This document shows, in pieces, positions 27,198 through 30,240 of a DNA stretch of 64,000 nucleotides (positions within the stretch are counted from its first letter, which is position 1; the number at the start of each line of letters is the position of its first letter). This stretch comes from an uncultured Bacillota bacterium (lineage in GTDB: Bacteria > Bacillota > Clostridia > Oscillospirales > Oscillospiraceae). Position numbers and translations under genes: made by a program. The notes beneath the pieces are model-generated. The model searched no databases, had not been told where the DNA came from, and saw nothing but the letters and a program-made list of their open reading frames with translations. The stretch lies in the NCBI GenBank assembly GCA_947645675.1, contig CANSDP010000001.1, forward strand, positions 186,001 to 250,000, read 5' to 3'.

Positions 27198-27382
27198 TAT
27201 ACTGCATTCTAATTTTTCATATTAGAGGTTTTTCATTTTGCCCCCTTCCGGCACAAATTTGGAGACATGAAACAGGAAAATCACTTTTGTCGGGAAAATG
27301 TGTGAAGCTGCACAATTTAAGGCACTGATTCAATAGTACTTTAACGAATTAAACAAAATAATATTTTGCAAGAGAATTATTG

Positions 27383-27411
27383 TTGACTTGCAAAAAGAAC
27401 TGTGTTACAGT
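27383..27411 (+). promoter_or_regulatory. Promoter for the glutamate dehydrogenase pair
   Basis: TTGACT (27383-27388), 17-base spacer, TACAGT (27406-27411). A TATAAT at 27415-27420 lacks a well-spaced -35. Leader of about 70 bases to the start at 27489. Confidence 0.6.
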
Positions 27412-27470: not shown

Positions 27471-28835
<1,365 letters not shown>

Positions 28836-28847
28836 GGAGGGGAGACT

Positions 28848-30191
28848 ATGAACAACTATGCCCACCGCGTATTGGAACGGCTCCGCCAGAAGTACCCCGG
28901 CGAGGGGGAGTACCTCCAGTCGGTCCAGACCTGGCTGGAGATGATCGACCCCGCCCTGGACGACCCCCGCTATGAAAAGCTGGACCTGCTCACCCGCATG
29001 GTGGAGCCCGAGCGGATGGTCACCTTCCTGGTGCCCTGGGTGGACGACCAAGGAAACGCCCACACCTGCCACGGCTACCGGGTGCAGTTTAACAGCGCCA
29101 TTGGCCCCTATAAGGGCGGCCTGCGGTTCCACCCCTCGGTGAATGAGAGCGTGGTGAAATTCCTGGGCTTTGAGCAGACCTATAAGAACGCCCTTACCGG
29201 CCTGCCCATCGGCGGAGCCTCCGGCGGGGCCGACTTCGACCCCAGAGGAAAGAGCGACCGGGAGATTATGCGCTTCTGCCAATCCTTTATGAACTCCCTC
29301 TACCGCTATATCGGCGCGGACACCGACATCCCCGCCGGCGACATCGGCGTGGGGGCCAAGGAGATCGGCTACCTCTACGGCCAGTACAAGCGCCTGCTTG
29401 GCAAGGCGGAGAGCTCCGCCCTCACCGGCAAGGGCCTCACCTATGGCGGCAGCAAGGTCCGCCTGGAGGCCGCAGGCTCGGGCACCGTCTACTTCCTGGA
29501 CCGGATGGCAGCCAGCCGAAACGACACCCTGGAGGGCAAGACCATCGCCGTGTCCGGCTTCGGCAACATGGCCTGGGGCGTGTGCCGCAAGGCGGCCCAG
29601 CTGGGGGCCAAGGTGGTCACCCTCTCCGGCCCCGACGGCTACGTCTATGACCCCGAGGGGGTCGCCGGTCAGGAGAAGCTGGATTTCCTTCTGGAGATGC
29701 GGGACAGCGGCAGGGACCGGGTGTCCGCCTATGCCGGGAAATTCGGCGTGGAGTTCTTCCCCGGCAGGAAGCCCTGGGAGGTCAAGACAGACATCGTCAT
29801 CCCCTGCGCCACCCAGAACGAGCTGGACGTGGAGGACGCCATCTGCATCCTGGCAAACGACGTGCGCTACTACGTGGAGGGGGCCAATATGCCCGCCACC
29901 GGAGAGGCCATGAAGCTGCTGCGCCTCAGCCCCAAGATTCTGGCGGCGGGGGCGAAGGCCTCCGGCTCCGGCGGCGTGGCGGTGTCCGCCCTGGAGATGG
30001 CCCAGAACTCCATCCGCTACAACTGGAAGCGGTCCGAGGTGGACGAGAAGCTGCGCCAGATCATGAGCGCCATCTACGATGCCTCCTCCTCCGCCGCCAA
30101 GGAGTACGGCCTGGGGGACGACCTCATCGCCGGCAACGATATCGCCGCCTTCAAGAAAATTTCCGAGGCTATGATCGCACAGGGTCTTTAA
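28848..30191 (+). CDS. Glutamate dehydrogenase paralogue lacking the catalytic lysine
   Basis: 447 residues, full length. It keeps K89 (GPYKGG), K113 (QTYKNAL) and D165 (PAGDIGVG) at exactly the C. symbiosum positions. The catalytic Lys125 motif [11 protein letters not shown] has become GGASGGADFDP, with Ser at 125. The KASNAGG substrate-site motif reads KASGSGG. The Rossmann region SGFGNMAWG and TLSGPDGYVYDPEG resembles the NAD-type C. symbiosum enzyme, so the pair are two clades rather than a recent duplication. Frame and length are intact, which argues against a pseudogene. It could be a regulatory partner in mixed hexamers, an enzyme of altered chemistry, or inactive. SD GGAGGGGAG precedes the ATG. 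Confidence 0.9.
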   Translation: MNNYAHRVLERLRQKYPGEGEYLQSVQTWLEMIDPALDDPRYEKLDLLTRMVEPERMVTFLVPWVDDQGNAHTCHGYRVQFNSAIGPYKGGLRFHPSVNESVVKFLGFEQTYKNALTGLPIGGASGGADFDPRGKSDREIMRFCQSFMNSLYRYIGADTDIPAGDIGVGAKEIGYLYGQYKRLLGKAESSALTGKGLTYGGSKVRLEAAGSGTVYFLDRMAASRNDTLEGKTIAVSGFGNMAWGVCRKAAQLGAKVVTLSGPDGYVYDPEGVAGQEKLDFLLEMRDSGRDRVSAYAGKFGVEFFPGRKPWEVKTDIVIPCATQNELDVEDAICILANDVRYYVEGANMPATGEAMKLLRLSPKILAAGAKASGSGGVAVSALEMAQNSIRYNWKRSEVDEKLRQIMSAIYDASSSAAKEYGLGDDLIAGNDIAAFKKISEAMIAQGL

Positions 30192-30201
30192 CAGTGTGCT
30201 T

Positions 30202-30240
30202 GGGACGCGCCGCAGGGCGCGTCCCTCCTTTTGTTGCTTT
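30202..30240 (+). terminator. Terminator after the gdh pair
   Basis: GGGACGCGCC (30202-30211) pairs with GGCGCGTCCC (30216-30225), followed by T-rich TCCTTTTGTTGCTTT. The tail overlaps the -35 box of the next promoter. Confidence 0.85.

Follow-up and report, generated by a model that had tools for sequence, protein, structure and literature searches.

In the window, which is the whole 64,000-nucleotide stretch of DNA analysed here, two glutamate dehydrogenase (GDH) homologues of an uncultured Oscillospiraceae bacterium are encoded in tandem: GDH1, an NADP-type enzyme with a complete active site, and GDH2, in which the catalytic Lys125 is replaced by serine. Judged from its residues, GDH2 is very probably inactive as a glutamate dehydrogenase, and the evidence favors a non-catalytic partner that would still bind glutamate/2-oxoglutarate. 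The chances appear slightly better than even that GDH2 is a conserved pseudoenzyme, which enters mixed hexamers with GDH1 and serves in them as a non-catalytic, glutamate/2-oxoglutarate-sensing subunit that tunes GDH1. This reading rests on the small residues that replace those for catalysis and nicotinamide, the kept substrate site, purifying selection, and the strict attachment to an active-type GDH. The features of the locus are collected in Table 1.

Table 1. Features of the GDH1-GDH2 locus, in window coordinates.
Feature	Position	Strand	Basis
GDH1, NADP-type hexameric glutamate dehydrogenase, complete active site	27483..28835	+	ORF, domains, alignment
GDH2, pseudo-glutamate dehydrogenase, S125 A209 G373 S374	28848..30191	+	ORF, domain, alignment, predicted model
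TCC codon, Ser at the catalytic Lys125 position	29220..29222	+	sequence, alignment
GCA codon, residue 209, Ala (Thr in 140/140 other GDHs compared; nicotinamide pocket)	29472..29474	+	position counted on sequence
KASGSGG, changed at 373 (N to G) and 374 (A to S), in the nicotinamide pocket	29955..29975	+	alignment
Perfect inverted repeat TTTTGCAAG-N14-CTTGCAAAA, putative operator that overlaps the -35 box of the pair's promoter	27364..27395	.	sequence
Sigma-70-like promoter TTGACT-17-TACAGT, TG before the -10 box	27383..27411	+	consensus match 9/12
Stem-loop resembling a terminator, 3' of GDH2 at the end of the two-gene unit	30202..30225	+	consensus match

The active site of GDH2

The GDH2 open reading frame runs from ATG to stop and encodes 447 amino acids, with internal stops absent. 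Both PF02812 and PF00208 are matched at full length (176.1 and 236.7 bits; cut-offs 25.3 and 23.4), and the predicted model has the GDH fold (pLDDT 90.4). GDH2 also passes NCBIfam NF006929 for NADP-specific GDH (605.3 bits vs. a cut-off of 536); a curated family model labels a protein that lacks K125 as an NADP-specific GDH.

The NAD-specific GDH of Clostridium symbiosum is an active homohexamer. Unlike GDH2, it has K125, T209, and N373, and in the alignment to its structure (PDB 1bgv) residue 125 of GDH2 is also its residue 125. The first-pass annotation of this DNA had reported a serine at Lys125 within the motif GGASGGADFDP, with K89, K113, and D165 kept, and all of this was confirmed by the alignment, in which S380 is retained as well. 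The annotation was also right that GDH2 reads KASGSGG where GDH1 reads KASNAGG. Its account of this as a change in a substrate motif is incomplete as a sole description, as position 373, together with position 209, belongs mainly to the nicotinamide pocket; the T209A change itself is a further altered site that had been missed. In the dinucleotide loop, the GDH2 sequence still has the GFGN part.

Residues were counted in 42 distinct GDH2 sequences, each from a different locus (that of L112 ends at residue 393, at the end of its contig), and in a comparison set of 140 other GDHs (41 GDH1 and 99 others), which are nearest relatives and a non-random sample. Lys125 is absent from 42/42 GDH2 sequences and is replaced by Ser (21), Ala (17), or Gly (4). 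The alignment that had been proposed as a check on S125 conservation upholds the loss of lysine throughout, but finds serine itself in only half of the sequences. Position 209 is Ala and position 373 is Gly in every GDH2, and position 374 is Ser in 40, Thr in 1, and Cys in 1. K125, T209, and N373 are invariant in the 140 other GDHs. K89, K113, D165, T193, N240, N347, and S380 are each present in all 42 GDH2 sequences, and A163 in 41. Across the whole protein, 127 positions are at least 97% uniform in the other GDHs, and GDH2 keeps 112 of them at 90% or above; 12 fall below half in GDH2 (27, 112, 125, 190, 209, 241, 368, 373, 374, 430, 431, and 434). Conserved GDH2-specific changes are also found at 187-191 and 430-438, distant in sequence from residue 125. 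The fixed new residues at 209 and 373 argue against simple decay. A sequencing error at residue 125 is ruled out, with 42/42 orthologues lacking Lys125 vs. 0/140 of the other GDHs.

A report on the structure of Arabidopsis GDH1 with NAD assigns Asn312, Asn337, Thr185, and Asn216 to the nicotinamide site, the priming of the catalytic water to Lys102, and the role of base to Asp142 (PMC7326016). By motif and a near-constant offset, these residues correspond to N347, N373, T209, N240, K125, and D165, respectively. Mapped in this way, the nicotinamide pocket has retained N240 and N347 and lost T209 and N373 in 42/42 GDH2 sequences. The glutamate-binding residues of GDH are presumably K89, K113, and S380. 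With K125, T209, and N373 lost and the substrate residues kept, substrate binding looks retained and hydride transfer lost, as far as sequence can indicate.

Linkage to GDH1 and expression signals

GDH1 lies directly upstream of GDH2, on the same strand, in 42/42 distinct GDH2 loci (the contigs of L091, L103, L121, and L122 hold only the 3' part of GDH1); the conservation of tandem order, also proposed for checking at the outset, is borne out. The intergenic gap is 10-16 nt in 38/42 loci and wider in L116 (24 nt), L115 (53 nt), L123 (170 nt), and L118 (302 nt); this count excludes the fragment L154, an artefact row, and the window's own row duplicates L085. In the 38 loci with the short gap, a GGAGG-like run resembling a ribosome site abuts the GDH1 stop codon. 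All residues checked in GDH1 are retained, in agreement with the earlier statement that the neighbour at 27489 keeps all of them. For its start, ATG at 27489 is better spaced from AGGAGG than the beginning of the program-listed ORF (Table 1), and most GDH1 orthologues start matching at residue 2 or 3; 27489 is the more likely start.

Two genomes of the same genus, G019 and G023 (85 and 65% complete), have GDH1 without GDH2, and their contigs continue for 1834 and 2936 bases beyond GDH1. Both fall inside the GDH1 clade, so GDH2 was probably lost there. GDH2 without GDH1 was not found among the loci examined. That GDH1 stands alone in two genomes indicates that it does not require GDH2, which counts against the preferred reading of a tuning subunit. 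The comparison of GDH1 for changes that accompany GDH2 gave 11 positions specific to GDH1, plus 7 at which the two GDH1-only genomes, a single lineage, both deviate; among those positions, no clear pattern of co-change of GDH1 residues with GDH2 was found. Residue 50 (C. symbiosum numbering) is Arg in 97/98 other GDHs and in 42/42 GDH2, while in GDH1 it is Cys in 97% of 39 paired sequences and Ser in both GDH1-only genomes.

The neighbourhood was compared in 16 further loci of GDH2 for which more flanking sequence was available, L005 and L173-L187 (some flanks are short, that of L185 most), using five other genes of the window, two of them named by eye. The pair persists in these 16 loci, and four of the five other genes were found in 0/16. 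Downstream of the pair lies a gamma-glutamyltranspeptidase gene (PF01019, 30231-31925), which occurs in one of the 16 loci (L174) and is therefore not a fixed part of the GDH1-GDH2 unit. A gene for a sodium:alanine symporter family protein (PF01235, 25556-27112), divergent from the operon, is beside the pair in none of them.

GDH1 and GDH2 are probably co-transcribed, as had been claimed, given the short gap in most loci and the promoter-like and terminator-like sites that flank the pair. The element TTGACTTGCA of the promoter region is common to 9/17 regions upstream of GDH1. For the terminator, the same scan gave 2 terminator-like matches vs. 3.4 expected in shuffles, and thus no excess. No riboswitch or other known RNA was found in the window at the gathering threshold. 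The inverted repeat is likely the operator of some regulator: TGCARG-N14-CTTGCA occurs upstream of GDH1 in 9/17 loci, with 14 nt between the arms each time (mean in resampled sequences 0.011, for a pattern picked after viewing the upstream sequences). It is present in 9/10 loci of the same genus, one of them GDH1-only, and in 0/7 loci of other genera; the coupling of GDH2 to GDH1 thus extends wider than this operator-like repeat. In its own genome the pattern is found solely at the GDH operon and at G000:C6:29733-29758, and this second copy is followed, after about 40 bases, by an ORF (L192 2802-3759, G000:C6) that by eye looks to encode a regulator of the RpiR/MurR type.

Distribution, origin, and selection

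Clear GDH2 orthologues (70-100% identity) were detected in 29/61 genomes of the same genus, out of 99 genomes searched (own genome included), and in 0/38 genomes of other genera of the order, where the matches listed reach at most 60% identity. About half of the genomes of the genus are without both GDH1 and GDH2. When 64 genomes of this genus were scanned with GDH1, the outcome was one further complete pair (L156) and one pair that ends at the contig end with the first 40 GDH2 residues present (L154). With a profile built from the 29 orthologues, 14/400 genomes of a family sample (own included; six genus codes) score 891-978 bits, and the next GDH in that sample scores 719.5 bits. None was found beyond the family: an order sample gave 2/394 genomes, namely the own genome and G177, which both belong to that family, and a class sample 1/391, the own genome only (E 1e-222 in both). 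In the family, order, and class samples, scoring was limited to four candidates from each genome, so a few orthologues may have been missed. Among the best 80 loci of a collection of named genomes, from which records near the window may be omitted, every GDH ORF found in 79 has Lys125, and L005, from an uncultured Oscillospiraceae bacterium, is the only GDH1-GDH2 pair. One genome, G052, contains the whole pair twice (C18 and C27), by duplication or mixed assembly. Neither the GDH1-GDH2 pair nor a GDH subunit without K125 was found in the accessible text of the open-access literature, among the matches listed, which is weak evidence of absence.

In a quick maximum-likelihood tree (107 rows from previously thinned sequences, SH-aLRT support), GDH2 is a single clade (support 100) with a stem of 0.56, nested in a set (support 99) that holds the C. 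symbiosum GDH and a third GDH of the same genome; GDH1 is a single clade (support 100) elsewhere. This third protein is encoded on another contig (L002), is of the full-length hexameric type, has K125, and is 69% identical to C. symbiosum GDH. With an estimated completeness of 82% over 75 contigs, the assembly could lack further GDHs. As all GDH2 rows of the tree form one clade, their residue pattern arose once and not repeatedly. The first-pass description of GDH2 as a tandem paralogue is accurate for gene order, but an origin as a duplicate of GDH1 is ruled out, as GDH2 branches with the clostridial NAD-GDHs. The coenzyme motif is of the SDS type in GDH1 and is SGPDG in GDH2, as in C. symbiosum GDH; the SDS motif is attributed to NADP-specific enzymes in PMC7326016. 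Tree and motifs together suggest that an old NAD-type paralogue came to sit behind an NADP-type gene. GDH1 and GDH2 are about 53% identical and belong to different subfamilies, which counts against their co-assembly.

GDH2 is under purifying selection, as is GDH1: for pairs with dS of 0.2-1.2, our own NG86 script gave a median pairwise dN/dS of 0.184 in GDH2 (812/861 pairs) and 0.168 in GDH1 (771/820 pairs). With its open frame, this agrees with the earlier view of GDH2 as an intact gene. The dN values of paired GDH1 and GDH2 are correlated (r = 0.899; 703 pairs, 38 loci), which largely reflects shared descent.

Possible roles of GDH2

GDH2 appears to retain the GDH fold, the residues for glutamate/2-oxoglutarate, and the dinucleotide-binding loop, and to have lost the catalytic lysine together with two of the four residues that would hold the nicotinamide ring. 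Presumably made together with the NADP-type GDH1 from a single two-gene unit, it would most likely join GDH1 in mixed hexamers. There it would act as a sensor of glutamate or 2-oxoglutarate, with an adenine nucleotide as a possible further ligand, and tune domain closure and hence the activity of the GDH1 subunits. Alternatively, GDH2 may form homo-hexamers of its own that bind glutamate/2-oxoglutarate as a sensor or a sink, perhaps contact another protein, and share no more than their regulation with GDH1. The same combination of kept substrate residues and lost catalytic ones would suit such a protein, as would the GDH2-specific changes at 187-191 and 430-438, which lie away from residue 125 in sequence. 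However, the strict linkage to GDH1, with a gap of 10-16 nt in 38/42 loci, better fits joint assembly, and the five other window genes tested include no constant neighbour of the pair; we regard a separate sensor as rather unlikely. It is also quite improbable that GDH2 performs a different chemistry, in which the enlarged pocket (125, 209, and 373) would fit a bulkier ligand or an altered cofactor placement, with D165 as acid/base. Fixed replacements (A209 in 42/42, G373 in 42/42, and S374 in 40/42), the kept D165 and GFGN part of the dinucleotide loop, and purifying selection are in keeping with this. On the other hand, residue 125 varies between Ser, Ala, and Gly and so provides no new catalytic group, the losses of T209 and N373 argue against a bound redox ring, and the absence of a fixed gene beside the pair among the five tested applies here too.

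A weak or conditional glutamate dehydrogenase, for which D165 and water would suffice, would be consistent with the kept D165 and with the passed NCBIfam cut-off for NADP-specific GDH (605 vs. 536 bits), but K125, T209, and N373 are invariant in the 140 other GDHs compared, and the genome already has two K125-bearing GDHs. In addition, Lys102 of Arabidopsis GDH1, the counterpart of K125 by offset, primes the catalytic water according to PMC7326016, and residual activity of this kind seems very unlikely. Least credible is a decaying pseudogene, which we hardly entertain: the catalytic residues are lost and the stem in the tree is 0.56, but GDH2 is full length in 41/42 loci (L112 ends with its contig), its dN/dS is 0.184, and 112/127 family-uniform positions are kept.

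For the preferred reading of a non-catalytic subunit in mixed hexamers, the closest parallel is found in Thermus, where gdhA and gdhB are encoded together; in the same way, an active-type and an apparently inactive GDH homologue are encoded together at this locus. In T. thermophilus (GdhA/GdhB, PDB 3AOE), as here, the organism has two GDH homologues, one active and one apparently inactive, and in the Thermus heterohexamer the catalytically inactive GdhA regulates GdhB (PMC9570180; see also PMC12364357). The Thermus 3AOE chains are 29% identical to GDH2, vs. 56-57% for C. symbiosum GDH, which points to an origin of GDH2 separate from that of Thermus GdhA (the tree holds no Thermus sequence). 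Unlike the Thermus system, this locus pairs an NADP-type GDH with a putative pseudo-subunit that descends from the NAD type. In plants, hetero-hexamers of GDH paralogues are known; for the mixed isoenzymes of Arabidopsis GDH, the accessible part of the source describes differing kinetics and does not mention subunits without the catalytic lysine (PMC12364357). By analogy, the best reading is that the pair works like Thermus GdhA/GdhB, with a separate origin.

More tentatively, and with considerable doubt, the pair could represent a regulated GDH that evolved independently. The dead NAD-type site would then have become an allosteric sensor that binds glutamate/2-oxoglutarate and, in the space vacated by nicotinamide, a non-redox ligand such as ADP-ribose, AMP, or a larger derivative of glutamate, and that switches the NADP-type subunit in the same hexamer. 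If so, assimilation would be linked to glutamate or adenylate status. If GDH2 is a conserved dead partner, a group of gut bacteria would regulate its glutamate metabolism through a pseudo-subunit that evolved apart from that of Thermus.
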